From Ectocarpus siliculosus (taxonomy: Eukaryota > Sar > Phaeophyceae > Ectocarpales > Ectocarpaceae), in assembly GCA_000310025.1 (NCBI GenBank), contig FN649728.1, forward strand, positions 3,721,965 to 3,785,964: a stretch of DNA of 64,000 nt. The letters are read 5' to 3'. The translations under genes and the position numbers were made by a program. Every line of letters begins with the position of its first letter. Within the stretch, counting starts at the first letter, position 1. Under the pieces are notes generated by a model that was not told where the DNA came from, did not search any database, and saw only the letters and a list, made by a program, of their open reading frames with translations. Below are positions 17,749 to 58,474 of the stretch, piece by piece.

Positions 17749-20700
17749 CGCCAGACAAGAGATTGAGCAGGTAAGGGCCCTCCTCCTGTTGGCTTCTTGT
17801 AACCTTAACGACACTGGGTGCTGCCTTCAGGGAGCACCAGCAGCCACCAGCAGCCCTACGCGTGTGTCCAACTTAGACGATACCCCCATCCAAGGTGGCA
17901 CGACGGTCTGCTTGTATTATTGTGTACTCGCTTTGGGCCAAGAAAAGTTGGTGCGTAGGCCTGGAAGTTTAGGGAAAAAAAAAATACACACACAGAAAGA
18001 AGACTATCCGTTCGAGATAATATGCGTACCCACAGCAGTCGAACGGGATGTGGTGGAGTCTTTCAGTTAGTGGAGGGAAACCGGCAGGGTACTCGACTTA
18101 TTTCGAGTCTATTTTAGTCTATCTATCTATGTAAACCAACCCAAACACTGATGATATAGTCAATATCAGTGATACATACCAGCTGGTGCTTGATAATTAC
18201 GCACAACCACATCTGTAAAGGTAACCTACATTATACAATAATACATACATCCCCTGTGTAGTTCTCTCCTGGGTCAACGACAAAAATATCGGGGAGAATC
18301 CCTCCGTTATGTCGTGTGTCATAAAATGTACCCTTCACCGAGAACACGGCGCAATGATAACTTGAGTCTTTAGTCTTTAGATAGATACGATTTTAGGAAT
18401 ATTATATTATTAGGAAAAATATATAAACAGACAAAATCATGGAAGAGACTATACACATATGGTATGTACACACACACACACACACACGTAGACTAGTACG
18501 ATATACTCGTTTTTCAAATTTTATCAATCAATTGATTTGAATTTTACCGGCGGTTGTTTCCCACCATTTTTGAATCAATACAACGACATTTGATCCTTTC
18601 GGGTTTACGCATCATTGATGCATGAGATAAGTAAGATCCGTATACAGGGTGTATGGTAAAAGTAGGGCATAGCAGTCCGTTTTTTCTGGAAGATCAGGTT
18701 TCACGTTTTGGCACGTGCGTACCACTTGGAAGTAGAGAAGCCTACGGACTACTTCCCGTTTCGGCGAGGAAATGGAAACGATCTAAAGATAGATGAAACA
18801 GGCAGGCAGGGGGAACGTGCGTGTACATCAACCCTAATAACTACCCCACGGATTCCCAACAGGATGCTGAAATGTTTGTGCACGTGTGCACACACATGCG
18901 TTCGTTGAACGTTCCGCGGGAGGTGGGGACCCTACCGGCAGCTGTGTGTTCCGAAGGGTATGTATGTATGATGATCCAGCGCGCACAAGCCCACATCACA
19001 CACGTATCTCTGTACGATGGAGCTTGCTGGAAACGCATCGATTGGTTCGACAGACCACCCCTCCATCTTGTCTCATACAGCGAGCAGCCGTCTTCTGTGG
19101 GGGGGGTGATACATGCAGCGGCGGGGCGGGGCGCCCTGTTCGGCGCGACACCTTGCATTTCTACGCACTCTGGCCGTTCCCTACCCCATCCGATCTTTTT
19201 GTATCCCCCTACTTGTGCGGCTGGCTGGAGCACGGCATCTGCCTCATCTCATCAGCAGCCTTCAACACGGGTTCGATCTAAAGAGTCACTAACAGGCCGT
19301 ACTGTAGACCTCAAGAAAGCACGACTGAACAAGGGGGAACGCCTGCACATCGCCCGCTGCTGCTACTTGTAACCATGTTACCGCTTCTGTCTATGTTCGG
19401 AATACCAAAAATTAATATGGGGAGCAGGTGGTCGGGATATTACAAATTACAATATACCCGCCCAGATGGTATCTTACTCAAGGAATACCTATAGCACAGC
19501 GTTTTCTTTCACACAGGGTTGTTGACTTGGCCAGTAAGTTGGCTAGATACTGCAGCTCTAGAAAATAAGGCAAAATAACGACTCGTTTGTAGCATAATTC
19601 CCAAGAAAAATCGATGTACATGTACAATTCGACCTGTGGTCTAAATAACGACTGCCTGAGCAAACACCGCAGATCGAGGAGCTCCTGTTTGGTGTGGACC
19701 CCGGCTTGCGCGTTCAAACCTATCGAACTGTACTGCTGAAGATAAGGTGGTAGAAACCTGTAGAATGCCTGCTCTGGCATCTTTCTTCGACTTTCAAATC
19801 TGAAAGGAAATACCAAGACCTTGCCGAGCTGGTGACCAGGAGGGTGGCTGGGGGAGTGCATGAGGCAGTCCATGGATGATTCCTCCACAGGGTTCGTGCC
19901 ACTTGAAAATGCCACTGCTGTATGGCGGCCACTATGGTGCGAAAACAACATACAGCAGTGTGCGAAAACAACACAACGAACAACATCTCGGCCAACACAT
20001 CGAGAGAACTGCAGCACTTTGCCAAGGGACAGGAAGAGAAGTATTGCAAAAAAAGGCATCGGCTTCATTACTCTTGCCTGGTCAAATTACAGTACCGTAA
20101 AACTGGCAGCACCCCGCGGCAATTCAATTAATTCGCGGCTGCCTCGCTTTCAGGGCGTTTTTGAAGGAGGGAGGATTATGGCAACATCAACCATCCACTA
20201 ATATACAAGGGAAGCTTCGGGAACGTCCTCTTCCACCGGTGGTGGTCCTGATGCGAACCTTTGACGAAATATCATTGCTCTCCACTCCATCCTGCGTTGT
20301 GCGTGTGCAGGCTGAATATGCCGTCCCGCGTAGAGATCAAGCGCCTGTTCATGCGACAATTCCGCAGTCATAGAGAGGGTAGCCTTTCTCCAGCGGTGGT
20401 GGCAAGAACCTCGGGGAGCGTTGCCGGTAGCTTCATCTCTCGCTTCACCACGCATCGCATGAGGTGATACGCGATGGCCCACTTCGCCATAATAATGAAC
20501 GTGGCAGGTCGTTGTATTTTTCAGTAAATAAAACAGCGGGATACGCACAGGAGAGGGTGGGCAGAGAGGGTAGAAGTGGCATGGAGAGGGAGGGACGGTC
20601 AGTTTGTCTCGTTCGGCGGCTTCTTCAGGACGCACTGCAACTCAATCCTCATCGCACGACACCCTCCGTCACACCTAAATACCACCTCGAAGCTTGTATT

Positions 20701-20925
20701 AGCAATACAATTTCACGGGGCATATCAAACATCGGAAGAGTGGCAGTCTGAAACGAGAAGCTGCATGCCATGCGTGTTTGTACGTAGCCAAGTTGGAGCA
20801 CGGGAAAAGAGGGGATTTGGCCCTTCCTTGTCTATGTTAAAGTTCCGTAGGGATTTGTCGAATCGCCCACCGCGTAGATTGGAGTCCTGCCAACTTTGGT
20901 GTCCGTTAGTGTTCACCCCAAAACC
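17749..20925. other. Intergenic stretch; one weak secreted-protein ORF
   Basis: This holds the upstream region of the kinase gene and the downstream flank of the large ankyrin/EH gene. A CA dinucleotide run is at about 18470-18487 and ATCT-rich patches lie near 18118 and 18375. The only frame worth noting is 20068-19478 on the minus strand, listed separately. Confidence 0.5.
19478..20068 (-). CDS. Possible secreted 196-aa protein
   Basis: A single open frame starts with a true ATG. Its N-terminus (MKPMPFFAILLFLSLGKVLQ) looks like a signal peptide, followed by a Cys/His-containing stretch and a hydrophobic C-terminal third. There is no recognisable domain and no close splice partner. It lies on the same strand as the large gene ending at 20926, so it could be 3' flank. 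A frame of this length can arise by chance in 64 kb. Confidence 0.2.
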   Translation of the reverse strand: MKPMPFFAILLFLSLGKVLQFSRCVGRDVVRCVVFAHCCMLFSHHSGRHTAVAFSSGTNPVEESSMDCLMHSPSHPPGHQLGKVLVFPFRFESRRKMPEQAFYRFLPPYLQQYSSIGLNAQAGVHTKQELLDLRCLLRQSLFRPQVELYMYIDFSWELCYKRVVILPYFLELQYLANLLAKSTTLCERKRCAIGIP

Positions 20926-21126
20926 CTACGATTCGACGCGGAATAGTCTGCGGGCAGTCCTCACCTCCTCCCTAGTAAGTCGGCCATCCCGATCGATGTC
21001 AGCCATCTTCCACAGGTCTCCCAGCTGAGCCTCCCCGAGACGGTTCCCGACAGCCTTCTTGAGGACTGGCCTCGCCTCCACGCTAGACAGAAGCCCATCA
21101 CGGTCTTTGTCCAGCTTCACGAAGGC
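20926..21126 (-). other. C-terminal EH domain exon
   Basis: Last exon of the large gene, ending VES-stop (TAG at 20926-20928). It has two canonical EF-hand loops, DKDRDGLLSSVE and DIDRDGRLTREE, and the EH-type Trp in LGDLWKMADI, so calcium and NPF-peptide binding look possible. The acceptor assumed is gcggcaag at about 21127. The helix before the first loop is short, so an upstream exon may be missing. Confidence 0.8.
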
Positions 21127-22084
21127 CTTGCCGCCCAGGGCGCCGGAAACGGGTTTCACGATAGAGTTAGGGATGAGGTTAAGGTGGAGGGGCGAGGCTC
21201 CGCGTGATCAGTCCCGGCCCATGCAATGAAGTCAGGCATTGTCGAACAGATTTTCGAATCTGTGTGCAACGGTGAGAGCCAGAGAATCACGGCCATAGGC
21301 AGATGTTTCTTTTGTCTGACCTTACCAAGTTGTGTACAGCATTTCAGGAATATGAAGTGCTAGGGCGGGCAAGAGAGACAGAACTTGGGCTGGGAGTGAG
21401 TCAAGCTATGAAGATGTGCGGCCCCACTAGAACGAACCCGTCTGTCACTTCCTAACAAGGCCATCGCGGCACACACGGTGTGGAAGTTCACGGGCGGGGG
21501 CGGGAGTGCTCCATGCGTATACGGCGTATGGCACTATAGCGGCGACGACCCAGCGCGAACGTCGTGGACATCGTGCTTTTGCACGTGGATGGGATGGATT
21601 CCGTCTTCTGGGCAAAAATATACTGCTCGGGTACCCTACTGCTATTCTTAACCTTCCAGGAGAATGGGAAGATGTGAGAGCAGCAACCTTCTTCGCTAGT
21701 GTCAAAAGACGATCGGCGTCCCCTACGGAGATCGGTACGTCGTTCGTGAATTTGAACTGGCAACGACGCCAAGAAAGCGTCACTTTCGCTAGAACGTGAC
21801 AATCCCGGAGGTTGTAGCACGAATAGACTGCCTGCGCATGGGAGTTGCCTACACGCACGAACGGTTGAGCCACGTACCACAATGACAAATAACCACTTTC
21901 AGGCCGCGGAAGACGGGGCCACAAACATGTCACCTTGTCGTAAACCCGGCGGTCGTCAAGACTCATCGCCCACTCGTTGGGTGTGTCCTCCGCTAAACGC
22001 CGCACGTTGTCCGCCTGTGCCTATCACACCGTTCATCGAAAACCAATGAAACAGGGCACACCGATCATTTGTTTCGGCCAATGC

Positions 22085-22123
<39 letters not shown>

Positions 22124-25100
22124 CGTGGTCGGTAACATTGGTCTGGAGTACAAAGCGGTGGAGCCACTGCCCTAGTGCCCCGGATTCTTCACTCAACCCG
22201 ATGTACAAGAGGTACCCCACCCCCGCGTCATTCCCCCCATCACCATGAACGGAACAAGAATTAAACAACAAAACTTGTGAGACCCGGACAAACCAATCGT
22301 TGATTAAGTCCGGAAACTCAAAACGAAGCGACTGGGACATGCACCTATTGAACTAAGCGATCAATCCGAGCACCTATGGTGCTGTATTGGACTTGATCAC
22401 CTGAAACCCAGGCCACGCACTGCTGTCCACGCTAGGGTTCGGTCCTCCGTGACCTCGGTCGATTGAAACACTTCGGGATTGTTGGAACATTTTCATCGTC
22501 CGTTTGCTTGAACGGAGTTTGGGATCAATAAGGCTGCTGCTGTGGCCTGGGGTCATACCCGTGCTCTGTCGTCCCCGCTTCATTCTCTCAATGCCATCGC
22601 TAGGTAGCGGTCTGCATTTGTCGTTTTATGACCATTTCCAAACTCTAGACACTTGTTCCTTGCTGTTGAAGTGAATATTGCGCTTGCCAAGACCACCGAA
22701 TTCAGCCAGCCGAAGGACAAAAAGAACAGGGCAAGACGAGATCAACGGCAGCCCGGCTGTGACTTCCCGACAGCTGTGAAAAACCCTGTTTTTCCCAACC
22801 CTCTTTGGGCTTGAGCTGTCGTCGAGGCGAACTTAAACGAGACTGAATTGCCACCTGCCTCTCTATGCCGTACAACCAGGAGGATATTCGCACCAACGAG
22901 GAAGCACGTCTTGCGTGTTTGCCTTGGTGGTTCATGTTTGCTTGAGAAAAAAGCCACAACAACGAACCAGACAATGTTCACTTCATGTTGCTGGAGGAAC
23001 AACGTTCATTGAGAAGGCACAGTTTGAGAGGGGGCTCCCCAAAACGTCTGGGTTCATCATCGACCCGGAATAGGAATCATCAAAAACAGCAGTCCAGAGC
23101 GAAACTGGGCTGGAATTCTAACAACCTTCGAAGTAGGTGGGCGCAGACGGCGGTCGGTTCGTTCCTTACCTTCGCGACGGCCGCCACAGCTTCAGCACGA
23201 TCTGGTGGAAGGGCTTTGAGGATGTCGGGCAGCATCCCAGCGAGCTTGTCCCCGAACGCCTCCTGCAGCACGTTCTCGTAGTACTCCCTCGCGCCCATCT
23301 CACCCCTCTTGTAGGACGCAGTGGCGTCCTTCAGCCCCACCTGCGGAATAGGTCGGCGTCGCGCTGTTTTTCGGGGGGTCTTGTGGCTGTCGGAATCGAT
23401 CGGAGGCGTTACTCGATGAAAAAACGACAGAGTTGCTACATGATGCCGTATCCTCTCTTACTGTGTATCTTACGTCAAGATAAAGCTCGAAAATGTGCAC
23501 GAAGCCAGATGGTTGCTTGCGCGGTGTGCAGAACTCACTCAACGATTCGTCAGTAAGCAAAAAGAAACCAGTACATCCATGTCCTCGCCTGCCGCGGGGC
23601 CGGGCTCGTCGCCGACTCGCTGACGGCCTCGAAATCCAGTCCGGCCGCCTCAGCTAGCTCCCGCGCCTTCTCCGGAGGTAGCCTCGGGAGCAGTTTAGGC
23701 CACATCTTCGCGAGCTCTTTCTTTCCGAAAGCCGCCTGGGCGGTACGTGGAAGCAGAGGGGACAGTGAGAAACAGGAATGGATTGTTGCGAGTGAATTGG
23801 ATCAATGGGCGTCAATCACGCGCGCAACAGGGAGCGGGCAGAGCGCGCAGTAGGTCGGGCCACATGTTGGGGTGTTCTTTCTCTAAAAACTCTCCCGAAG
23901 ATTACAGGTTGACAAAGAGTGAAACCGCAGGCAAATATATGCGCAGCAGGAAGAATGGCATGACAACAGGCTTACACTGTTGGTTCAGCTGAAACGAACT
24001 AGCCTGTCGCTAGAACAGCTCTTCGCAAGATCCCCCATTCCACGTTCTTGAGACGGGGAGTGGGTGGTGTGAATGGGTACCAAGAACATGGCGTTGGGTA
24101 TTTTTGCAGCAATGCCGCAATGTCAGGGAGAAAGGTTTGCGAAAGCTACCCTGATCGGCGCCGTTCCTGGGAGAGAACAACTCGCAAGACACACAACGAG
24201 GAGTAGAAGGCTGAGACGATAAACACGCAAAAGGCCGGAAGCAACTCGTGATGTATGTAGGCTCGAAAACATGTCACGGTGCCTTCGAGTCCACCTCACA
24301 TGGCCTCAATACAGCGGCCATTCGCCACGTATGCCAATCGTTACGAGAAGCATCGTTCTTCGTCTCACATGGCTTGTAAAACCAACTCAGACGTCAAAAC
24401 CATGCGCGCCACCAAGATTGAGGCTACCGATTGTCGCGACACTCAATTCACACCACTTGATGAAATCAGTCATCGGTACATATACCGTTTGTCTCTACCT
24501 TTACCCAGAGCAACCTCACCCGTAAAATCGGAAGATATTTCTCGGCCTCCATATCTCCGTTCTTGAACTCCTTCGTTGCTTGTTTGAAGTCCGGGGAGTA
24601 TTTACTTTTCGACGTCGGTGTCGAAGGGTTCTTCTCTGGCTTCCTCTCTCGGATATTTTTAGGATTGTTCCCACCGCCAGGCTGGTCTTCTTCCGGCAGG
24701 GGCTGATCTTGGCGGCCGATTGGCGGTGTCCGGAGGCACTTGGGCAATTTTCCCGGCAACGGTATTTGCTTGTTCGTGGAGCACATGACTAGGTGCATCG
24801 CTACCGCCCATTCCTCCCTGTTCAGTCGCTCGTCTCTGTATGGGACGGCGTGTTTTGGCGATGCGGCTGCCTCCGTATCAATCTACTATAAAGACCAGGG
24901 TTGCTCATGTCTTTCGCCATCATGAACAAATTATTTTCTCGAAGTTTCTTCGTGACGCTGTGACACTGAGCACGAATACTGCCGACTTGCGTCGACCAGC
25001 ATTACTCGTTTGTTCGCGTGAACAAAAAGAAAAGAAGACCAAAGACGACAACCACGTACCTGGGGAGGCGGGGGTGATCGTGTTCTATATGCGAAACAAC

Positions 25101-28100
25101 AACCCAAAGTAGGAAGGTTCGGCCAAGCCTTCCGAATGACACTATTGGCGAGGTCGTCAGTTGCATCTACTTCTCCATTTTTCACGTGGAAGCATGTTGT
25201 TGGACTGAAGTATACAATATATATATCACACCTCAATCCTCGCTCACTTTTCTACGTCTGCCATCACCCAGATCCGTCTCAGAGACTCTCGGGGCAGGCC
25301 GCTCTTGGAGAGCGTGCTCGCAGCTTTCGCGGGGCTGATGGGGGCCCCGTCGGGGCTCAGCTTGGAGAACGCCCGGTCGTACCTGTCCCGCTCGACTCTC
25401 GACATCTCGAACAGGCCTGCGAATCGATTTGGCAAGCAGGCATGCACCACGGCGGCAAGGGAGGCGTGAGGTAACTTCCACCAGGAATCGAGACGAGCAA
25501 AATTGGCCAGGACGGCGGGGCGGAGGCAAAGACTCACATGTGTGTTTGAGGCTGCGACGGGCGGAAGAGGTGAGTTGAGACGAGCGCGTAGGCGAGAAGG
25601 GGGTAATAGAGCTTTCGTTGCCTCAGAGCATTAGGCATCCACTTGTTACGTGAGACGCAGGCTGAGATTCGTCTGTTGTTCCTAGGCACGGATGGGCAAG
25701 AACTTTGATTGTCGTTTGCGGAATGAGCGACCGACGAATTCACCCCGAACGTACGTGCCACGACATCTACGACGTGTACCCTAACTTGAGTCACATCGAA
25801 CCGTTATCTGGATCTATTCATTTCGGGAAACGGGGAGTACGTAGATGGGGGGGCAGTTGCTCTGTCGCAGACTGATGAGCACTTGGTTTATTGCAACAGG
25901 TGCCAACGTGCGTGTCATGTTGTGTTTCCCTTACGTTGATCTCGTCAGGACAGCCCGAATCCTGCCGAGGGTCGACGCTGGTCAAGTCATCTTCGAACGT
26001 CACCTGGACTATGTAAACAGCTCTTCACACGCAATCAATTGCTAACATTCACGAAGAACGGATTGAATCGATTAGAATTCCTGAGGACCTCCGTTTTCCT
26101 CATCATCACGCTTCTGGTGTAGCCTCAATGCCTTACCTCCCCCCTCGACGTCAACATCTTCGGCCTCGTTTGCTGCTGCCGCCGACTCTGCCGCTGCACC
26201 TTCTTTGACCTGCTCTCCCTTCTTCTCCTTGTCCTTCTTCTCCTTCATCTTATTGCCCTTCATCTTCTTTGTTTCGCCCTTCTGCTCGTCTGGTGCTCTA
26301 GTTGCTGCTGCTGCGGCTTCTGCTGCGTCCGCCTTTCTTTCGCCCCGCCTTTTTTTCTTTACCTTGCGATTTTTGGCACCGTCCGCACCTTCCTGTGTAG
26401 CAGCTTCCACGGCTGTGTATAGATGCAGCGAAGGACAAAGCAAAGTGACCTTTAGGTACTTCGGTTGAGGAAGGAATGAAATCATGCATTGGCCGAGACG
26501 CGCATTTCGGAAAATATCTTCAACGATCTGCGCTCCATCAGTTTGTGATGTTAGATTCGCTGTTCTTATCAGCTATTGTGGTATCAGTACGGTTGGCAAG
26601 CGCACCAAACAGAATCTAGCTGAATTCAATTCTCAAAATTGCGAATTCCAGCAATTTTTGGGGAATCGCCGCTTGAGGTGCCGTTCGATATAGGGCGTTT
26701 ATAATATGAGTGTGTCAATCTCTCGTACTACCCGTGGAAAACAGCAGCGCTAGCCGAAACCGAATGCAACATGTTGCTGATTCTTTCGTGCAACAAAGCC
26801 ACACTCGATTTCAGCCGTACATGGTGGCATCCGTTATCATATGTGGGGATGGACTACTGTTATAGTGCAAGAAAGACCGACAACAACAACAGCAACAGTA
26901 GCAACAACAAAACCAACAACAACAACAACGGCATGAGGCAGCCACATACGGGGCATTGTTTTCGCCTCACGGCTGTCATGGCCCGTAGAGTCTGCCAGCT
27001 CCTTCCCGGCGCTTTTCCTCTGGGCGCCATTTCTGCTTTCTTTGCTGGCGGCTCCTTCGGCTCCGGCCTTCACGGTAGGCTCTTGTTCCACCTACACCCG
27101 TCGCGTTTTAGTGTATCACCACACCAAGACAGCGATAGGAGATGTAAGAGATGTAAGCGTCATGTCAGCAGCACGCACACTTGGGTTCACGACAGGTGTT
27201 CACAGAGCCTGCTGTAAAGTACGCTTTGTGGCGAATCAATTACCCTGGAAGCAGGATGGGATAGCCTCTGGAGCCATTAGACGGAATTTCGTCTTCAGAA
27301 ACGTGGGACGGCCAGTTGTTACATATGATGGAAATTTCGTCGGCTACATTCTCAAGAGACAGTATAATAATGTCGTCCAGCACGTGTGCCCCCCCGGGTG
27401 CCTGAACTCGTCCTCTCGTTGGGGTACACAAAATTTTCGAGAAATCGTAGAAAAAACACCACCGTTCAGTTTCGGGGGGAAAGGACATTCGATGCTGGGT
27501 ACATGCAACCGAGGGAAATCATGCACTTCAACTTTGTGCGCATCATACCGTTGGCGAAATATGTTGCGGGAGATGTGCCGGTGGACAAAGGATCCACTCT
27601 TGCAGCGAAAGCGGGTTTCTGGTGAGAGGATTCGGTATGTCAACAGCACACCGGAGTTCATCGGCGCCCGGGCGCCCTGGTAAAATAAACTCTGAATGAT
27701 GATCATGGCAATATCTGGACCAAACCAATCGCGGGTTGAGGAGCCTGTAGATAAAGGTACGACCTCTTCCCTGAAAAACATAATGGCGGCCACACTGCAC
27801 GGGGGGAAACGTGAAAGTTGTTCCAGACTATGTGGACACATCCGAAAATGAACGACTCTGAAAACGGTTTACGAATGTCGCGGCCACATCTCTAGGGGGC
27901 GTCAAGCAACGCACCAAAGTTGAAAATCAAGGCACCCTGCCGTCGGCCCCACCTCTCGCTCGTCTTTCTCCTGCTGCTGCTGCTGCTCGTTGTCAAGGGC
28001 CACCTTCTCCAACAGCTCCTTCTCTCTCTGCCTTGCTTTCGTCCTCACCCCGGCCTCTCCCTCGGCTTCGGACGCGAAGGCCTGTAGTTCCGCCGCCTTG

Positions 28101-31100
28101 CCCTTGAATTGACAAGAGATGCATGAGCCCAAAACGTTTCATTGGCGTTCACGATTAGAAAAACACATCAAACCTTGTAGAGAGAGAGGAGGCGTGTAGC
28201 GAGAAGAACGGAGAGAGAACGAAACGACCAAAGAATTCAAGCGCTATTATTTATCTGTCTGAGCAAGCAGGTTTGGGGGCATGAAGCGAACCCTTCCTGT
28301 AGCGACAACAACAACAACAACAACAACGCGACCGAGAAATGGGGCTAACTTGGCACTCTAAGGAGAAAGCATCTGCCCACAGTTGAACTCCATCGTTCAA
28401 GAAGGGGAGGTTATCTTTCACTCTGTCTTGTAAGCGGATTAGAGGAATGGCAGGGGTCGATGTTTGTTGCACTACATTCGGTTCGCCGAAGGTCCTCGTT
28501 CAAGATTGGGTGCGTACACTAGTTGACGAGTCTTTGAGTGGCAATCCAAAAGAGGAACAGGCCGGACGGAAGACGAGTAAGACGCAAAAATCTCGCCAAG
28601 TCACCCACTCAAAAATTACGTCACAATCTCAATCAAACAAGCACACTCTTGTCGTAGGTCAGCGGGTTAGCACGGTCAATGCTCATCAGAGAACAACAAG
28701 CAGAATCACGCACGTGACCCGTACCTCCCGGCACTGACGTATTTTCAGTGGTGAGTCGGTCAGCGCGGTATTTGTTCACCAATAGAATACACAAACAGAC
28801 ACGCACACATTCGTTTCTGCCGCGAACTACTGTCGAGGGCGTGTGCGCGTTGTCGCTATTCAACCCGCTGTACGACTGGCGTCTTGTGGACAGCCGGCTA
28901 CACAGCGTGATTGATGCAAACAAACAACAGAAGCACGGCCAGAGCACCTCAGGGAGGACTCTGAGGATGCCTGGTAGAACGGCGATAAGGCGTTGTTCTC
29001 CGAACTCTTCCTGTCGTCGTTGGTTCAAGCAGGAAGGAAGGCGAAGCAACAGCAGCAGCAGCAGCATCATCATCAGTGCCATCAGGTTTGTTCGTCACAA
29101 GAATCACTAGCTTATGTCTGCTGCTCTGTGTTTCCTATTGGATATGCCCGTTCGTTGCTCCGTTTTTTTCCACTGCTTGGTCAGCTGTCATTGCAAAACC
29201 TATATTTCCGTACCTTACCATTGCTATCGCGAGAGAGTAGAGATCGTACCCAGCTCAAAGGTCGATTCGTGTCTCATGCAGGAGACAGCACAATTGCACA
29301 GTCATACGTTCGAAATCAGATGTAGAGATTTCGAGCAGTGAATGAACAACTACGAGATAGGATCCATCGAGGTGTTACGTATTTGTGCGTCTACGACGGT
29401 TTTCGGGCTCACGGACACAGATAGTATCCCGCAATAAACGTTAGTCGTTGCTTCTCTGTCAGAGAGAGCTCAGAAAGAGGGTATATACATGCGCGCCGAG
29501 GTTTGGCGAATGCCATCCCTTTCGGTTCCTCCTGAAGGTTGGTCACAAGCATCCCGGACTGATTGCTAGTTGCACTCGCACAAAAAGGTTGTTGGAGCAG
29601 ACATCATGGGTGCTTTCATGAACACAGAAGAATAATCAACCCCCGACCACCAGGACGACGACCCCCACCACGATTGGAACCACCAACACCACCCCACCCA
29701 CCCGCCACAGCAGTAAGGCCACCACAGCTATCACGACCATCACCACCAAACAACAAACAGCAAAGCAGAAAGGCTGCAACAAGCAACGTCGACTCCCACC
29801 ATCATCGCCCCGAAGAAGTGCGGCGCGGCCAGCCTCCCCGCGGCAAACTCCGAAGTCAGCCTCTGAGCGTCCATCTCCATGCTGTCCCTCAGCTTCCTTT
29901 TCTGGGACACGGTTTCTGTCTTGTCTTTGTCACGCCCGTTCCTTTCATCATCATCGCCATTCATACCGACGCTTGGCGCTGCCGCCCTCGCCCGTACCGC
30001 CGACCCCTTGACGGCAACGCCGGGAGCTGGGGTGACCTCGGTGGGACCCCTTTCGCCCTTTCTACCATCTCGCGACGCTTTGTTGCTTGGCTTTACCTCC
30101 TCTTTTCCGTGGATGTCTACCGTGGCCCCTCCTGCCCATGCCGACGCCCTGCACAAACCGGGAGATCAGATATGTATATTATCTCGACAATGTGTGTCAA
30201 AAGTGCCGTACAATTAAGAGGAGAGGAAGAGGGCCCGATTTAGGCACAGGTCTTCACTTCCCGAGCAAGCACGTCCTTTACGGACAAGGCACATATGCCG
30301 CACCTTTCTTCCTTAGTGTGCCATTCGCCCACACTTGCGCTGTGGTTGAATGACTTTGACTAGGAGGGAGGCAGGCAAGAGAGAGCAGGTGGGGCGCTTG
30401 GGGGCGCTATTGGTTGAGGTCACGGTCAAACGGATCACCCCGGCGGACACACGGGGCAAAATGTTGAGGCAGAAGTAGACCTTGTTGAGCAGCGGGGGGG
30501 TGGGGTCGTCTGCGGTATCGCCGGTACTGAACCTGGGTGGATGGTTGAGCCGTAAAAGCGCCTTACATCTGGCAAGACGGAAGGAAGTTTCATGACATCG
30601 CTAAGTAAAACGAGACACGAACGCGAACATGTTCACCCGGCAGAAACCTAAAAACGAATCCTGTCTCCCAATCAGTGCGAAAGGCTCGACACGAATCAAA
30701 GGGACGGGTAACATGTGCGATGGTATTCTAGCGCGCATACGCGGATGAGGCAGCACCAGGCACCATCAACCATCCAGTCTCCCCTACCGGGTTTCGATTT
30801 AGGGTCCCTAGCACGCGCCCTATTACCACTGACCCTCCCTTTCGAGGCATTTTGGGGGGCGCATCTGCTGCACGAGGCGAACGAACTCCGCTTTCTCTTC
30901 TGGCCAACAGTTGTATACATTCTCACAAACCTTCTAACGGCAGCGAGTGACAGGCAGAGGAGCCAGAGGTTGACGTGGAAATTGAGGAAGGGCATGCCCA
31001 TGGCAATCCGAAGCGTGCATTTTGATTACTCTGCCCTATCCGGGAAGCTGCTCCCTTCTCTGGGATATTTTGGTCTCACCAATCAGCCCATTGGTCTCAC

Positions 31101-34100
31101 GAACTCACTCACGAGTCTCACTCTAGTGATAGTTGTTTTTAAGAGTTGGTCGATGTTCCCCGCCGACCAATGGCCCGAAGAAGCGACTACGTCAGCTCCC
31201 TTCTCCTGCACACATGCTCGCTACGAACTTGCCGCTTCCTTACACATCCAGATTCCACCAGCGAACTATGTACAAAAATATACGCGTGGCAAGCGGCCAC
31301 GGAACACGCTCTTGACTAAATCCCGAACCTCATTGGCCCTCCTTACCTGGTGGTGAATGGTGAGTTGGGCTTGGGGGAAATCGGCCCCAGTTCGTCGTCA
31401 TGGGCGCTGTGGTCCTGCTGGTCCATGCTGGTTCGCGGTCTCTGCCTCTGTCCAATAGCGCGATGAATACCAGGTACACACAAAACATTCGTGCCGTCAT
31501 TGATGTAGCACATTCTAGACCAAAATTTCGAACCACCACGCCGTACACAGGTCCGTTGTCGTTGTCGTCGCACGTAGCGGCCATAATGCCAGGGGGAACC
31601 CGTTCACACAGGCGCTGAAAAACAGAAAACACAAATGGAAGAACACAAAAGGGAGGCCACATCCTTAATCCAAGGGCATCCGGACAATACCGACCCAGGT
31701 TGAGAACACTCTTAAGCAGGTTTGCTAGTACCGCGTCCCATGGTCACACGGAACGGGATGTCGTGCGCGCCTCTACAGAATGGCAGTTTCTTGTGCGGTT
31801 CCGCGCGCACTCGAGGAATTGACACGGATAGCCCCATCATGTCGAGATGGCGCTGACCCACCGAAACCCGTCGCGTAACGCGAGCAGAATTCTCCACGAT
31901 GTAGACGAAAGAAGTACTTGTAAGATGCCGCAAGAGGCAAAAACGTGGGCTTTACCGCATGTTGCTGACGGGACCACAGACCAAAAGGTTGGGGAGCTTG
32001 TTTGTGTTGAAAGGAGGGTCCCCGCAAAAACTAGAGAGTAACCTCACCCAACCCGCGTATTTTCAGCAATCTCGGTAAACGCTTTTGTTGTCGAGATGCC
32101 GATGTTGGAAAGGTGATCCCAAGATTTCGTGGAGAATTGCACGACTCCCGATACACGCGCTACGAAAGAGGAGCGAAGAACGTAGACGCCACCTTCGCCT
32201 ACGATCTATGCTTCTCCTGAACACTCGTGCCTCCAATCAAGGGCACACGGAGAACCCTCTTCCCGCGGTCCCCAAAGCAAACTAGTATCCTCTACTCACA
32301 CATACCCGTACGCTGTTCAAACAGAAAAATCGACCTACTGCGTAACCCCTCATTTTTCACAAACTTCCGTCGCCTGCACCAACCCTACCCGTCCCTGTCG
32401 TCTCTGCACACGAGGCAAAATCGCGACGATACTTGCTACTGCCGGGCCACGCTGACACTTTGCTTTCCTACACCGCCATTGCGATGTGTCTTTGCTGCAC
32501 TTCAAGGTTCTATGGAGCAGTATGAAAAGCGGTTGATGGGCACGATACCCGACCCTGCTGTACTTCAAAGTTCTACGGAGCAGTATGTATAACGGTTGAT
32601 GGGCACGATACCCGACCCTGCTGTACTTCAAGGTTCTATGGAGCAGTATGTATAACGGTTGATGGGCACGATACCCGACCCGCTGTGACGGTTAGGGCAC
32701 CACTTGCGCCAGACGTCCCTACTTGTAATGCTTTGCGTGTACTGTAAGTGGCGAAGGAACTCAAGATATGCACTTCACAGGAATTGAACCCTTACTGTGC
32801 GACCTCGGATCGCGACCTGTTCCGGTCAGAACGCCAACACCATAGCAGGGATACGTGGACGTCATCGGGATGAAAGCGGATAGAACACATCGGTTGCAGA
32901 ACAACATCGCGCACTCACCACCTGGTCTCTGCCGCCCTTCCTGCCGCCGCCATGAGTCACACCAGCCCCCTCCACCAACCTTCCTTGCGGCTGGTGCTGC
33001 ACCTTCTTGCCACCGTCTCTCTCAGCACGATCAAGGTCACCCTGCCCTGGAAGGCCAGGACTACCCTCGGCACCTGTGACCGCTTCAGAGGGCCCCGCCT
33101 CACCGGGAGCCTTCCTAGGGATGATTTTCTGATCTTTCACCGGAACGACGTCCGTAGAAACGAAGGAAGCCCTTGGATGAAGGACCCTCGGTCGTCGCAA
33201 CTTTGTAGCGCTGTCACTGTCGACATGCCACTGATTGGCTAGCTCGCGGCGCTTCCTGTTGGAAAGAATTGCCAACACCCTCGGCAGTATATTGTCCACC
33301 TGTTCGTGTTTTTCCAGTCACGGTCAGGAGTGGGTTAGTCGTGTGGACGTTCTGGGTAGGTGTCGTCGAGACACATGCTGTCGGTGTCAATTTTTCGAGA
33401 GCCAACGCTGCTGCCAAGAAAATGGGAAGTTTTGGTTCATTACTGAAACGTGGTTGATGTTTCTTGGTGAATGTTGGCTTTCTTGTGTAGGAGAGCTCTT
33501 ATTATGTAAAGTCTAGGAGACGCGTAGGTGCAGGCCTTGGGTCGGTTGTCTAGGGTCCCCGTAGCACAGAGGTTCAAGGCATCGCCACGCTGGTGGTTAC
33601 TTCCCTCGTAGGAAGGCGGCAGGCGACGCGTGTCTCTCACGCCAAGTGGTAAGTCGAGAACTGTGGAAGCAGCACAGCTGGGAAGCTACGCGAATCACCG
33701 TGCGAGCAGATAGGCTAGAGAAGGGTTGGGGTATTCATCAATGGGAGGATATCACTTAGAGGGTCGTTTGTCCGAGATCGTAGTTCACTACCCCGGCTGG
33801 TGGTTGTCGGAGGTATAGATCGTGTTTTGACGTCGGGACGCCCCAAGTATCTCGCACACGCTCATGCTGCTGGGTGCGTGCTTCTGGCGGGCTCTTATTC
33901 CACAGGACACAGACTACGCAAACAAAAAGAGCAAACACTACAGGTCACGGTTGTTGTCGATATCCTCGCAAAAGCAGCAACCAAGAGATGCACGTTAACG
34001 TGGCGGTTGCCGCGGAGGTGGAGGGCACATCGCTCACTCTTCGTTAGGGAGATGTTCTCTAGGGCGAAGAGGTGGGAAAAGCACCAGCGAACACGGCTAA

Positions 34101-37100
34101 AGTGCGAGAGGTACTCTCGTTTCCAGCGCGAGGGGGGACGTTTGACGTGGATCAAGCATCTGTGTGCCGCCAAAACAGCAGCAGCAGCAACAACAACAAC
34201 AACAACAACGACGACGACGACGACAACAACGACAACAACTACTACAACCAACAATGCAATTTTCGATAGTATCAACATGTCGTGATGAACCTCACGGACC
34301 AGCGCCATAGTTAGCACTATACCTGGTTGCCGAAGGCGTCCGACAGAACTGTCTTCAATTCGGCAGCGCTGATCCGGTTCTCCCTGTACTTGGCTACGGC
34401 CTGATCCAAGTCACGACCGGTCCCAGCGCTTGTTGAAAGGTCGCAAGAATCCACGGAGCCCCCAAAGGAAAACACCGATGCCACCGAACTGCAGTCGCAC
34501 GCAGAGGAGGAGGTGGCGGGTCGTTGGACGCTCTAGGCGTATGTTATGTCGTGATGCACTGTTGCATGTGATTTTTACTCGTGCGGTGGTGCCCTGCTAG
34601 AAAATAGACGTTTGAATCACAAAGTTCCGGTTTCTGGTTTCTGGCGAGCGCACCTCAGAGGTCTCTGATCGGCAGCAACACGTCGTGAACGAAATCCCCC
34701 TTTCCGATGGATGTATTCATATGAACACAACCACTCCACGTCTCCAGAGCGACGAAGAAGACTGCCACGGTCTGGGGCGCTGCGTAGCCACTGGTTTCCA
34801 AACTACCAATTCTTTATTGCCCACCTGTCATCTCCTTGTCCCGGCGGCTCGGCAAGAGCAGTCGATTTTTTCGTGTTCCCTTCGGACGCCGCCTCCGCAC
34901 GACGCTGTCTCGATCTCCGTAGCCTTTTCTTGTTCAGCCTTTCTTCGTGCCGCCGCTTGCGGTGAACCTCCATCAAGGACCATGCCTTTTCCTCGGGCAT
35001 GCCTCTGGCCACCCTGGCGATCACGGCTTCTTCGACTCTTCTCCCTCCACCTTTCCGCTCCTCCACTCCGTCGACCATCTCGTCATAGAACTGTTCCGCG
35101 GTGATGGAACCACGGAGGTACTTGACCGTGGTCGCTCGAAGGAAATTTTCTTCATCACCGTCCCTGTGGCCGCCAGGGGATAGTTTGCCTCTTGCCCCGG
35201 TCGCGGAATCGCAGCTTGCTGCTGCTACAGCGGCGCTGGAGAATCGGGGTACAGAGGAGAGGGTGTACTAAAGTTTTTTCCCTATATCCATCGCTTTTGG
35301 CATTCTCAAGCGGCTCCGGAGCGATTTAGCCTAGAGAGAACAACTCTTGACACACGTGTGTGGAATTGGAGGATTTGTGGCAATGGCACCTTGTGTGCCA
35401 GCGCATTCCAACCTGCACAAGGTTGATGCCCGGTATGACCTAAAAAGAGAAAACAGCGGAGTTCATTGACCCGCATCGATGATACGCCTCGATCGCACCT
35501 GTTTCCCTTGGTGTCTTCCTTCGCCATTGCCAAAGCACCTGCTTTCGACCGGTCAACGCCACTCTTGGCTGCCTCCAAGTTTTGAATCAGGTGCGGATCA
35601 TCTGAAGGAAGAGCGGCCAGCACCCGGGGCCAAGAAGCATTCAACCCCTCTCCATGAATGCGCGTCAGGACTACTAAAATATCATGGGCACCTAATTTGC
35701 CCCCGGCGTACAGTTCCCATGCCGTGTCAAACTCGAGGGTGTCATTAGTTCCGCCGCCGTTCACTTCGTGTCGCGTAGATTCTCCGGTCGTTGGACGCTC
35801 GGCAGCAGGCGCTTGCGCCACATCTTTCGCTTCATCCTGAGCACCTCCTTCTTCCCGCGAATCACTGCCGAACGGCTCACTCCCGTCACTCTGCGCTTCG
35901 ACGGCGTTCAAGGCGTCTTCGAGCAGGCGGTACATTGGGGATCCATACGTAGCCGACTCGTCCATCTCTTCCACGATGTCCAGCAGTTCCTGTCCCCGTG
36001 AGCCGGTGAATGTTTTCCGGTCGATGTGCGAAACGGGACAGTGGTACAATTCGGGTGGACACATTAAGGCGGGAACAATCAGGTCCGGCGAGTGCGCTAG
36101 GATATACGCGTGGAACTAGAACGAGACCAGGTGCGAGTGAGCGGGATACATCGCATGCCATCACAGATTAGATGTTGCCCGTGCCCACCACTGTTCCTCT
36201 ATTCACTCTCCGAAAGTATCCATGCCGAAAAGAAAAACCGTGGATAGCCGTTCGAAGGTTATTGAGGGAGTAGAGTGCGACTCGACCAAGCTGCACCCTA
36301 CATTCGAGTGAACTAGGAACAACGAGTAGACCCCTCAGTGGCACTGTTTGCGCCTGGTTTCACCTACATTTGACCTGGACAGAACCCACAATGTTCCATG
36401 CTTGTTTTCACGATATCGAAGCCAGGACCTACCAAACCGGGAAGTAGAGCGTAGCCCACATACATCGGAAATGAAGTTGGCAGGCACCTCCCCGATGCCC
36501 TTCGCGTTCTCCAAGAGCCACTTGAGGACATTTGTCCGCCCCGCAAGCGCGGCTAACATTGCAGGAGTTTGCCCCCGGTGATTTTTCTTCTTTATATCTC
36601 CACCCTGGGACAGGAGGTACCCGAGACACTTCAAGCGGCCGCCGTAGGCAGCAACGTGCACGCCGGTGTTACCTGTTTCCGGTATCTTATTTCCGTTCGC
36701 AACGCAGCAGAAGGGAGAGGTGCGCATTTGGTCTAGACTTGATCGATGGGCGTGTGACAAGCAAGATCTAAATACTGCGTCAAGGGGGCATGAAAAAATG
36801 AAACAATGAGAGCTTTCCCGTCATAAAGATGTCGAGGGAAGTGGCAGACGTTTGGACGTGATAGTCAGAATCACTACCAATACCATCCGCACGAGCATCA
36901 CCAGCGGCGACAACTGAAAGGACAGCAGGTTAAGTATTAACTTTCCCACTTTGTTCGATTAAGTTATCCAAGGTGTGGCACCCGAGAATTGGCGATCCTC
37001 CACACAATACAACACCAGCAATCCATAGATCTTGTTATACAGTAAACTCCAAGGGCATCATAGGAAACACCAAGTTTCCTGCCTCAAGTACCCTGCTTGA

Positions 37101-39246
37101 ACGTTCTCGCACCTCCTCGAATGCGACATCCATGAGCAGACGGTGGTGCACGAACTCCAGCGGGATAAGGTTTTCCGACATCGCCGCTAGATGGACCAGT
37201 GTGCGCCCCTGCAGTTATAAGCCCAAAAGCGCACCAGAAGGCCAGGTTTCAAGGAATGCCGCGGGATTATGTAGACTCTCATTCCCTCCCACCCCCAGAC
37301 GCAAGGCATTCCTATCAAAGTACGTCTTGGGCATAAAATGCCCTCCTTCAGATGGATAAATCGACCGTGAAGCGTGTCCCTAGGTTGGATGTTGTTTTAC
37401 GCCGTCTTCCTTGAACAACCTTAACACACGCTGGCATGGAAGGGCCAATATACACCCACGACATAGTGAACCCTATCCATGAGCAATCACTCCACCAGGG
37501 CTCCATACTCGCGTCTGGGGTTCGCAGTACCCTTAGCGCTTCCGCACCAACCGCCTTCAACTCCAGCTCCAAGCTCAAATGCGTACCGTGCCGAAACAAG
37601 TGGATCATTTTCTCCAACAGCGCCAGCGTCGTGGATGGGTCCAGTTCTCTCCCTCCTTCGACGCGCTCCTCCTTTTCATCTTCCGCTGTGCCCCCGTTAC
37701 CCTCCCCGAGAGGCCTCCCAGTAACCGTTATTGGGTTAGTGGCGGGCGCGTTTGGGCCCGAATCAAGATTGGTTTGCTTGGCAAGCAATCGTGGTCGGTC
37801 GTTGGTTGCCAAGGTTTGCTGTTCTAAGTCGAGTGGTGGCGTTGGTAGGAAGCCAAGCGTGGAGGCGGGAAGAACTTCTTTGACATACTCCCCAACACGC
37901 TCCTGAAAAAAACCAGTAACCACAGTCCGAGGGGGTGACAAGGCGACACCAGACAGAGGCGAAAAAGGGCAAGGAGGACCGGGGATGACGGGGTGGACCA
38001 TGGTCCCCGCCCAGAGACAGGAAAAATGCGTAGATTCATTGAAAGGAAACTTGACTCTTATCATCACTCGCCCAGTTCGTTGAAAAAAGGGAAGGCCATG
38101 CATACCCGAGAGCGCCACGTGACAGATCAAAAGAGATCTTTGACTAGCTTTCCGAACCTAGTGCAAGGGGCGACTGTTCAAACCGAGGAGAGCCTTAAAG
38201 GCATGAAAGGTTCAACCCAGGGAAAGTCGATTAACCCCAGTCGCAAGGATGCGTTACCTCCATAGAACCTCTTTCAATTATCGTCAGGTCCCCGCGGAAA
38301 CAACTCCCCTCTGCCAACGCTTCTTCACCAACAATTGCACAGAACATATCAGGCATCAATAGCTCGGCGTCCCGGGGTCAACCAGCACGCTTTATTGGCC
38401 CTATACCTGTACGGCAAACCCGAAAAGCTGTCCGCCCATGAAAACAGGGGCACCGTGTACTCCGTCCAATATTTCTTGTTCCGAAACAATCACACGAATT
38501 GCTGTCCGTCCATTGTGAGCAGCAGGGCCCTCTCCTTTGCCCCCAACACTCCCTCCTTCACTCGCTGCAGTCCTTGCCTCCTTCTTGCCAAGATCGCCCG
38601 CGACACTTTCTCCCGCCCTCGCCAATGTTCTTCGCCCCGCACCTTTTTCGTTTCGAGGCCTGTCCCGTTCTACTCGGACGGCTTCTCTTGTTGCTGCTGG
38701 TTCTGTAGCGGTTCCCACCCCCAGTGACACCACGTCACTTTGCACGGCGAGGCGATGCGCGCGCTTGTTCCTCCCGTGCGCGTGCGCCACCATCTCCATC
38801 AGAACAACACCACCCTGTTCGACAGAGATGGAAAACGGCTTCACAGGGTCCGGGTCGTTGGGACGCCTGTATGCCTTTGTACCTGGAAACACCCCGCCTC
38901 GCCGGACCTTCTTGTCAGCCACTCCACCGCCGTACTTGGCACTGAAACCTGTTCCGGAATGTGTGTTGCGGTGTCGCCGCCGGTGTTGTTTTTTTTCAGC
39001 TGCTGACGTCAGCGCTCCGCTCCCTGATTTACAACTTTCGGTGGCCTCTGTGCGGTGCGTCCAGTGCACCCCCCCTGCCGTTGTTCCTGCAGTAGCTGTA
39101 GAAGCACCTACACCCGCAGCGGGCGACTGCAGACGTCCGCACCGCCAGAACCTCATGACTGTCTCGGTGTACTCTGCGGGTGCTGGTATGGCTGGCGGGA
39201 TCGGCAACGGGGGGACGATCGGGCGATCGCACGCCGCGATGACCAT
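20926..39246 (-). CDS. Giant ankyrin / Hel2-like module / EH-domain protein
   Basis: Twenty exons join with consistent phase to about 1,808 residues: 39246-38407, 38362-38258, 37902-37456, 37208-37113, 36685-36464, 36115-35499, 35235-34825, 34488-34323, 33299-32919, 32205-32048, 30148-29800, 29010-28948, 28102-27953, 27091-26950, 26412-26137, 25416-25248, 24835-24520, 23735-23589, 23340-23170, 21126-20926. In order the product has an unrecognised N-terminal third, ankyrin repeats, six repeated helical modules with a Lys-rich coiled segment between modules 4 and 5, one EH domain before module 5, and a C-terminal EH domain. EH domains bind Asn-Pro-Phe peptides in endocytic trafficking; ankyrin repeats are protein-binding. 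I infer a cytoplasmic scaffold, perhaps linking ubiquitin or ribosome surveillance to membranes. The weakest parts are the first exon (start uncertain), exon 32205-32048, and the link to the last exon, where extra exons are likely. Two adjacent genes cannot be excluded. Confidence 0.65.
21653..22014 (-). other. Two candidate extra exons of the large gene
   Basis: Segment 22014-21934 (27 codons, phase 0 at both ends; RLAEDTPNEWAMSLDDRR) and segment 21756-21653 (34 codons plus two bases; SVGDADRLLTLAKK) each have an AG acceptor and a GT donor, and read like real protein. They lie between exon 23340-23170 and the last exon. Including the second leaves a phase mismatch with the last exon, so a further exon would be needed. 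I could not find it. Confidence 0.4.
22085..22122. repeat. (GTT)n microsatellite
   Basis: About 12 GTT units in an intron of the large minus-strand gene, where they read as (AAC)n. Confidence 0.9.
23170..25416 (-). other. First EH domain and modules 5-6 of the large gene
   Basis: The EH domain is split over 25416-25248 and 24835-24520. The join restores ADVEKDERLNREEW, with the conserved Trp in LRRIWVMADV and the typical LPGKLP end; the first EF loop is degenerate. Module 5 follows (DFKQATKEFKNGDMEAEKY, then AAFGKKELAKMWPKLLPRLP across the next intron). Module 6 is intact in 23340-23170 (SYKRGEMGAREYYENVLQEA, then FGDKLAGMLPDILKALPPDR). Exon 23735-23589 appears to end at a GC donor (CAG/gcgagg). 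Confidence 0.8.
26137..28102 (-). other. Charged coiled-coil and Lys-rich linker of the large gene
   Basis: Three exons. 28102-27953 encodes a Glu/Gln-rich helix (KARQREKELLEKVALDNEQ, then QQQQEKDERE). 27091-26950 is Ala/Glu/Lys-rich. 26412-26137 has alternating Lys-Lys/Arg and Ala-rich blocks ending in an acidic stretch that runs straight into the first EH domain. Phases agree across all three junctions. The composition suggests a flexible, possibly nucleic-acid- or phospholipid-binding linker; no domain is recognisable. Confidence 0.7.
28948..30148 (-). other. Module 4 of the large gene
   Basis: Exon 30148-29800 ends with SEFAAGRLAAPHFFGAMM and the 21-codon exon 29010-28948 continues EEFGEQRLIAVLPGILRVLP. 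The next exon then begins GKAAELQAF. Joined, this gives the same pattern as the other modules: a short helix, G-x-L/M-x-A, an aromatic, FG, LP-x-IL-x-x-LP, and K/R-A-x-E-L. The first half of exon 30148-29800 is a hydrophilic linker. Confidence 0.7.
31347..31614 (-). other. Exon-like segment of unknown ownership
   Basis: A strong acceptor (gttttTcag) and donor (CAG/gtaagg) bound 268 bases that stay open in one frame. Another frame, open over most of the length, reads FWSRMCYINDGTNVLCVPGI. Its length does not fit the phase of the neighbouring exons of the large gene. It may be an alternative exon or part of a nested gene. Confidence 0.25.
32506..32690. repeat. 63-bp tandem repeat, three copies
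   Basis: Units begin ggttctatggagcagtatg and contain ggttgatgggcacgataccc; copies start at 32506, 32569 and 32632. The array is in the intron between exons 33299-32919 and 32205-32048 of the large gene. Confidence 0.9.
32919..35235 (-). other. Modules 2 and 3 of the large gene
   Basis: Exon 35235-34825 carries module 2 (KYLRGSITAEQFYDEMVDGV) followed by a basic helical stretch rich in Arg-Arg/Lys-Arg. Exon 34488-34323 ends AVAKYRENRISAAELKTVL then SDAFGNQ, and exon 33299-32919 starts VDNILPRVLAILSNRKRREL. The splice junction falls inside the module right after the FG motif, as it also does in modules 4 and 5. This recurrence is strong internal evidence for the exon joins. Confidence 0.75.
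34174..34248. repeat. CAG/CAA/CGA triplet tract
   Basis: A compound trinucleotide run about 75 bases downstream (on the minus strand) of the donor of exon 34488-34323, within the intron. Poly-Val/poly-Thr/poly-Asn frames over it are artefacts. Confidence 0.85.
35499..37208 (-). other. Ankyrin repeats and module 1 of the large gene
   Basis: Exon 37208-37113 (GRTLVHLAAMSENLIPLEFV) and exon 36685-36464 (NTGVHVAAYGGRLKCLGYLL, then RGQTPAMLAALAGRTNVLKW) show the TxLHxAA and GxTPxxxA patterns of ankyrin repeats. Exon 36115-35499 contains LMCPPELYHCPVSHIDRKTF, which I do not recognise, then an acidic linker and module 1 (AWELYAGGKLGAHDILVVLT, ending with a divergent LAALPSDD). Confidence 0.75.
37456..39246 (-). 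other. N-terminal exons of the large gene, no known domain
   Basis: Three exons. 39246-38407 has a possible ATG in ASMVIAAC and ends GAPVFMGGQLFGFAVQ. 38362-38258 has 35 codons. 37902-37456 is acidic and Pro-rich, ending in a helical patch LALLEKMIHLFRHGTHLSLE. Phases agree. The frame on the opposite strand (38537-39379) is equally long, but its Arg/Pro/Cys/Ser-rich composition looks like an antisense shadow. An exon upstream of 39297 (acceptor ccgaag) could replace the assumed start. Confidence 0.5.
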
Positions 39247-57805: not shown

Positions 57806-58474
57806 GGCTAACTCTTATGGCAACCGAAAGTTGGCCCGACGGATTTTTTGGGACTGGCATACCTCCATCCCCCGGATCTGACACGGATTCGACCAAGAGA
57901 CAGACCTCTCACCACATCATCACAGAGTTCTCTCCCCATGATGGTCGGATTGTCACAAACCTTAAAGGCTGTACGCACCACACCTGTAGGCGTCTTTGAA
58001 GCTAGTGGTGCCTGCTGTGGGGTCTGTGTGTGCTGAGAAGTGTCAACTCATGTGAGCAAAACTATGAATACGTGTGGAGAATCCGTCGACGATTCTATAC
58101 GAGAAAATGATGAGAAATGTCAATCCATGTGAGCAAACTAAGAATCCGTGTGAAGAATCCACCGATTCTTAAATACGACAAATGGAGTGAAATTTTCCAT
58201 GCGATTTCTCGTATAGAANNNNNNNNNNNNNNNNNNNNNNNNNNNNNNNNNNNNNNNNNCCACAGCAGGCACCACTAGCTTCAAAGACGCCTACAGGTGT
58301 GGTGCGTACAGCCTTCAAGGTTTGTGACGATCCGACCATCATGGGGGGAGAACTCTGTGATGATGTGGTGAGAGGTCTGTCGCTTGGTCGAATCCGTGTC
58401 AAATCCGGGGGGTGGGGGTATGCCAGTCCAAAAAAATCCGTTGGGTCATTTTTCGGTTGCCATAAGAGTCAGCC
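57806..58474. repeat. Inverted repeat, about 215-bp arms around a gap
   Basis: The left arm 57806-58020 and right arm 58260-58474 are reverse complements with a few substitutions (for example atcatcacagagttctc against gagaactctgtgatgat). The 239-base centre has its own smaller inverted repeat (ttctatacgagaaa and tttctcgtatagaa) and the 41-N gap at 58219-58259. Confidence 0.88.
58219..58259. other. Assembly gap (41 N)
   Basis: An unresolved run at the inner edge of the right arm of the inverted repeat. Confidence 1.

Follow-up and report, generated by a model that had tools for sequence, protein, structure and literature searches.

Repeated PAH_ZNF598-type modules beside EH domains in Ectocarpus siliculosus: a candidate scaffold with ankyrin repeats

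EH proteins, in the familiar cases, act in vesicle or membrane trafficking. In the excerpted text of PMC4824007, EH domains bind NPF motifs, an endocytic role is given for EH proteins in animals, fungi and plants, and EH-EH-coiled-coil proteins outside the opisthokonts have no further globular domains. A second point of comparison is Hel2/ZNF598, the E3 ligase of collided ribosomes. For yeast Hel2, an excerpt of PMC6362110 reports that C-terminal truncation abolishes the main 18S rRNA contact and polysome association; the C-terminal region is termed unstructured and poorly conserved. Here we analysed 64,000 nucleotides of the brown alga Ectocarpus siliculosus (contig FN649728.1, positions 3,721,965 to 3,785,964 of the forward strand), henceforth the window, which is part of contig C3 of the 189 Mb genome; gene coordinates are window positions. 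The window contains a gene region with ankyrin repeats, two EH domains and a repeated module of the PAH_ZNF598 type. As read from sequence, the new observation is that this alga uses PAH_ZNF598-type modules more than once and in repeated form, at two loci next to EH domains. The domain combination is a modular scaffold, i.e. a known kind in a new form. Literature searches found no paper on the PAH domain of ZNF598 or on its Pfam family PF23202, none on an EH domain together with ankyrin in Ectocarpus or on an EH domain in a brown alga, and, among the matches listed, none on ZNF598 in algae or oomycetes. For EH domains and endocytosis in stramenopiles they led to one paper, PMC4824007.

The gene region lies on the minus strand. 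From a three-frame reading we chose 21 exons with GT-AG ends (E1 to E21, window 39246-20368), which form two open blocks. Block A (E1-E9, 1037 amino acids) contains ankyrin repeats and the modules M1-M3. Block B (E10-E21, 700 amino acids plus stop) has the order M4, linker, EH1, M5, M6, EH2, stop. Pfam identified Ank_2 in block A (E 8.3e-12, 46 bits at a cut-off of 27.3). In block B it identified EH (PF12763) in two stretches (6.8e-30, 103.4 bits, cut-off 22), EF-hand_1 (9.4e-12) and PAH_ZNF598 (PF23202), the latter again in two stretches (8.1e-13, 48.9 bits, cut-off 25). A single PAH_ZNF598 match in block A (1.1e-4) was below the cut-off. Thus, the ankyrin repeats, the two EH domains and the Hel2/ZNF598-like family of the module, all of which a preliminary description had proposed from the bare letters, were recovered by Pfam. 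That description had also counted about 20 phase-matched exons in one long protein. There are 21, and the phases fit within each block; at the junction of A and B phase 0 meets phase 2. Its span, 20926 to 39246, had to be extended. The end of the gene was moved to 20368 because EH2 starts in exon 22014-21934 and finishes in exon 20481-20368 (E21), which had been missed and lies beyond the earlier coordinates.

Exon boundaries were picked to fit, and the phase agreement (8 junctions in A, 11 in B) therefore is no independent proof. In a codon model with each exon held out, the chosen frame outscored the other five in 18 of the 21 exons; E4, E8 and E11 (10, 55 and 21 codons) failed. Weak points of splicing are the E5 acceptor and the donors of E13 and E17. 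The gene region is free of assembly gaps (the N runs of the window are at 15055-15124 and 58219-58259). Its parts are:

39246-38407 (E1) and 37902-37531 (E2), minus strand: N-terminal part without Pfam match, with a putative start codon; open frame, GT-AG ends, best of six frames
37208-37113 (E3), 36913-36884 (E4) and 36685-36488 (E5), minus strand: ankyrin repeats, Ank_2 8.3e-12; E4 has only 10 codons and is not in the best frame
36115-35499 (E6), minus strand: carries M1 at 35737-35561
35235-34825 (E7), minus strand: carries M2, the weakest copy, at 35147-34953
34488-34323 (E8) and 33299-32919 (E9), minus strand: M3, interrupted by an intron; block A ends here
32918-30149, minus strand: gap of 2.77 kb between blocks A and B, without a convincing exon
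30148-29800 (E10), 29010-28948 (E11) and 28102-27953 (E12), minus strand: start of block B; M4 across three exons
27091-26950 (E13) and 26412-26137 (E14), minus strand: charged linker rich in Ala, Lys and Glu; open frame, fitting phases, high codon score
25416-25248 (E15) and the first part of E16 (24835-about 24721), minus strand: EH1; Pfam EH, EPS15 1.2e-12
24600-24520 (end of E16) and 23735-23625 (E17), minus strand: M5; PAH_ZNF598 28.1 bits, held-out profile 45.7 bits
23901-23815, minus strand: a seventh half-module, degraded and located between the exons of M5; 15.5 bits, E 0.0015
23340-23170 (E18), minus strand: M6, whole in a single exon
22014-21934 (E19), 21126-20965 (E20) and 20481-20368 (E21, with the stop codon), minus strand: EH2; Pfam EH, matches to intersectin-1 and EHD proteins

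A 63-nucleotide unit in three head-to-tail copies is located at 32493-32681, inside the gap between the blocks.

Submitted singly to Pfam, M5 passed the cut-off (28.1 bits), M6 (24.6) and M3 (22.7) were just below, and M1, M2 and M4 had no match. The modules do not cover the whole PF23202 profile of 83 positions; they align from position 23-26 onward. The count of six depends on leave-one-out profiles built here, each held-out module being compared with 400 of its own shuffles. The scores were 17.8 (M1), 7.2 (M2), 26.6 (M3), 32.3 (M4), 45.7 (M5) and 48.2 bits (M6). Every module was above all of its shuffles, M2 weakly (best shuffle 6.2). Hence the six copies of the preliminary description stand with respect to the held-out profiles; M2 is marginal and a relationship to PAH_ZNF598 at the Pfam cut-off is obtained for M5 as the only single module. 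When the six-module profile was run on the six-frame translation of the window, it retrieved the module exons, followed at 15.5 bits by the half copy at 23815-23901. Further matches began at 7.0 bits, and reversed sequences reached 6.8. The third M4 exon by itself scored only 3.6 bits. The half copy shares with the DNA of E17 a 25-base core whose likeness was matched by none of 1000 shuffles; we take the half copy to be a duplicate of E17 that has decayed. Its use as an alternative exon was ruled out, as by eye the splice phases do not fit. For M6, entered as a single exon whose first residue the aligner took as Met, AlphaFold2 (11 alignment rows) predicted helices at 3-11, 17-43 and 46-56 with a mean pLDDT of 90.2 and a pTM of 0.70. 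The name of the module would presumably imply a helical bundle like the PAH domains of Sin3; the model has three helical segments. To our knowledge no function has been assigned to the ZNF598 tail domain. A search of viral contigs with the M6 exon gave 53 pattern matches and no relative.

Among solved structures the EH domains matched EPS15 (1.2e-12), intersectin-1 and EHD proteins; the EH2 part was also matched by plain calmodulins. EH2 is split over three exons, E19 carrying the first helix and E21 the last. By eye, its two EF-hand loops are canonical, unlike the degenerate loops of EH1. The tryptophan of the pocket for NPF-type peptides is, by eye, present in both EH1 and EH2. Neither block contains an NPF or a PPPGL motif, and no enzymatic domain was matched in either by Pfam at E up to 10.

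Does the combination occur elsewhere in this genome? The preliminary description suggested that it would be new. Even within this genome it is not unique. A gene on contig C22 (about 762100-770200) combines four EH domains with a single PAH-type module; its long C-terminal stretch looks helical and has no Pfam match. Four distinct C-terminal EH half copies in a row were found with the EH profile, and four EH domains are readable by eye. Behind the fourth EH domain and a short acidic linker comes the module, placed like M5 behind EH1. It was detected with the profile of the six window modules (24.4 bits for its first exon); the joined module scored 39.8 bits against 9.2 for the best of 1000 shuffles. 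No ankyrin repeat was recognised in the stretch read. A gene on C306 (about 19200-22600, minus strand) ends with two PAH-type modules in tandem, which follow a low-complexity stretch rich in Ala, Pro and Gly with repeated MFGG-like motifs. With the exons joined approximately and by eye, the two modules reached 47.7 and 26.5 bits in Pfam, and 37.8 and 49.3 bits with the window-only profile (best of 1000 shuffles 5.3 and 5.4). An EH-profile scan of stretches of C306 found no EH domain there. On C8 (about 97.3-98.6 kb, plus strand) two half-modules with weak scores are possibly part of a further gene with such a module. A genome search with PF23202, in which exon-split copies can be missed, matched C306, the window gene and, weakly, C8; 2 of 14 control genomes gave matches below the cut-off. 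By sequence the window modules group firmly with those of C22 and C306. In the genome, 11 EH matches reached E 0.01 or better. They lie at eight loci, two of which, the window gene and C22, have the module. Another, on C483, may be a plain EF-hand protein. A query spanning M5 and M6 returned the window gene only; one running from the ankyrin repeats to M1 returned the window gene (three matches) plus five hits, all weak, to the ankyrin part of this gene.

A ZNF598-like gene was reached on C25 via zf-C2H2_13 (27.2 bits, cut-off 27). Its exons include zinc fingers, which score 23.5 bits to zf-C2H2_13. Further downstream, but on the same strand, is a PAH domain that reached 38.0 bits when joined by eye and aligns to PF23202 positions 7-78. 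The first C306 module thus exceeds this tail in the Pfam score. RING_ZNF598 gave a best E of 0.48 in the genome. A RING was not located for the C25 gene, which is therefore termed only ZNF598-like. In the window gene, Pfam at E up to 10 matched neither a RING nor a C2H2 zinc finger of the ZNF598 type in either block, and by its domain content it is not a Hel2/ZNF598. A kinship of the window modules with the ZNF598 tail is suggested by the Pfam profile and by C306, which is strong with both profiles. Each group of modules, those of the window, C306, C25 and C22, is scored by the Pfam profile, C22 remaining below the cut-off.

As no enzymatic domain was matched, binding is the likely function. 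We propose a brown-alga multidomain scaffold composed of binding modules only, passive and multivalent, most likely in trafficking; as a whole we give this about an even chance. The vesicle or membrane setting is probable by analogy with other EH proteins. In such a scaffold, NPF-type peptides from trafficking adaptors would be the ligands of the EH domains, and EH2, with its canonical loops, may bind calcium. The PAH-type modules would simultaneously bind short helical segments of several partners, and the ankyrin repeats would take a further one. The ZNF598-type module would serve for binding in general and would not bring ribosome-collision function. The recurrence of EH plus module at C22 supports a scaffold. 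More tentatively, and with considerable doubt, the ZNF598 tail domain may have turned, in this brown-alga lineage, into a helix-binding module that is mobile and repeated in tandem. EH plus PAH would then be a trafficking cassette specific to the lineage, occurring in an ankyrin-PAH-EH gene (six modules, two EH domains) and in an EH-PAH gene (four EH domains).

Several observations weigh against this proposal, beginning with the coherence of the gene. Phase 0 at the end of E9 is followed, 2.77 kb further on, by phase 2 at the start of E10. No exon in the gap stands out; the best bridging candidate scored 18.8 and eight control phase pairs scored 15.0 to 20.8. Neither phases nor bridging candidates establish, across the gap, the single transcript of the preliminary description. 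There may be two adjacent genes, the first with the ankyrin repeats and M1-M3, the second with M4, EH1, M5, M6 and EH2, and the full architecture would be an artefact of joining. We consider this conceivable, yet somewhat doubtful. Use of the weak donor at 32980 (score 3.6) would link the blocks directly and in phase, and both sides share the strand and the module family. In addition, the 61 codons of E10 that precede its first ATG scored 0.45 per codon compared to 0.49 for the rest; in a control with 1066 intron windows 127 were open and none of these scored as high. As the 5' part scores as coding as the remainder, an upstream coding exon exists, in the same or in a second gene, where it might be the first exon. 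On balance we favor, with fair confidence, that blocks A and B are one gene. The pairing of EH and module is independent of this question because it is wholly within block B; with two genes it would still be true for the second.

The modules raise doubts of their own. The C22 module had only 15.5 bits with Pfam PAH_ZNF598, below the cut-off, and six of the eight EH loci are without a module: within 10 kb around those on C15, C33, C4, C492, C16 and C483 no convincing one was found (best E 0.34 with a ten-module profile). The window-only profile missed the C25 tail exons at E below 10, and the joined tail scored 7.7 bits against 7.5 for the best of 1000 shuffles. Helix binding is suggested by the PAH name alone. 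The fold prediction gave the three confident helices of M6 and no informative match: Foldseek of the M6 model against PDB had two matches (E 6.6 and 8.0), and VIA-align, applied to those two only, gave Tom20 a Z of 5.2 with 53 aligned and an rmsd of 2.5, a score of the kind that its own note describes as common. PDB sequences contained no solved relative of the ten-module profile; five were at E up to 1, the best being the flagellar FliG at 0.03, which was taken as chance. The lack of an NPF motif in the window protein itself is neutral. Might the modules be unrelated to ZNF598, generic short Ala/Leu-rich helical repeats which fit Pfam by composition? Three of six without a Pfam match, the weak direct link to the ZNF598-like tail, the missing fold match and the sub-cut-off matches in control genomes would be in line with this. 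It is nevertheless quite unlikely in view of the block B score, of M5 above the curated cut-off, of C306 bridging both profiles and of shuffled and reversed controls that stay low. Conversely, the modules might retain the role of the ZNF598 tail and act as tethers for collided-ribosome or ubiquitin factors, which the EH domains would connect to membranes. The match to PAH_ZNF598 and the effect of the Hel2 truncation (PMC6362110, excerpt) agree with that; the absent RING and zinc fingers and the poor C25 comparison do not. Further, the 18S-contact site of yeast Hel2 cannot be mapped onto the PAH domain, and its region is termed unstructured and poorly conserved in that paper. A ribosome role is therefore kept only as a rival, and a very unlikely one, and a connection of the window protein to ribosome collisions is unsupported.

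Should the reading of a mobile helix-binding module be correct, one domain type would serve a ribosome-collision ligase as well as vesicle adaptors, which would suggest a shared class of helical ligands. Six repeats in a scaffold and EH neighbours in two genes of one genome suggest a general binding module. Its ligand, once found, could be carried back to ZNF598.

Elsewhere in the window, ten of the long open reading frames were submitted to Pfam, and none was matched at E 0.01 or better. An open reading frame at 59528-59947 (plus strand), without Pfam match at the same limit, has a Cys-His pattern which by eye resembles the tail of a non-LTR retrotransposon polyprotein. The EsV-1-7 family is expanded in brown algae; its cysteine motif was matched by all 150 scored candidates (of 880) in the genome.

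How does the window protein compare with known systems? With Hel2/ZNF598 it shares the PAH_ZNF598 domain, which in the ligase is at the tail in one copy. Here there are six, accompanied by ankyrin repeats and EH domains and without a RING or zinc-finger match. EHD proteins, EH-domain ATPases, are similar in the EH domain, and the window protein has no Pfam match to their dynamin-type GTPase/ATPase. Within the genome, the C306 gene likewise has PAH-type modules, two in tandem, and differs by the Ala/Pro/Gly-rich low-complexity stretch and by the lack of an EH domain in the stretches scanned. The C22 gene shares EH, a short acidic linker and a PAH-type module in the order of EH1-M5; it differs in having four EH domains and one module. 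The EH-EH-coiled-coil proteins Eps15, intersectin, Ede1, Pan1 and plant AtEH1/2, as described in the excerpt of PMC4824007, also have two EH domains. In the window protein these are not adjacent, as two PAH modules, M5 and M6, stand between them. Thus, it differs from the EH-EH-coiled-coil proteins outside the opisthokonts in domain order and in domain content.

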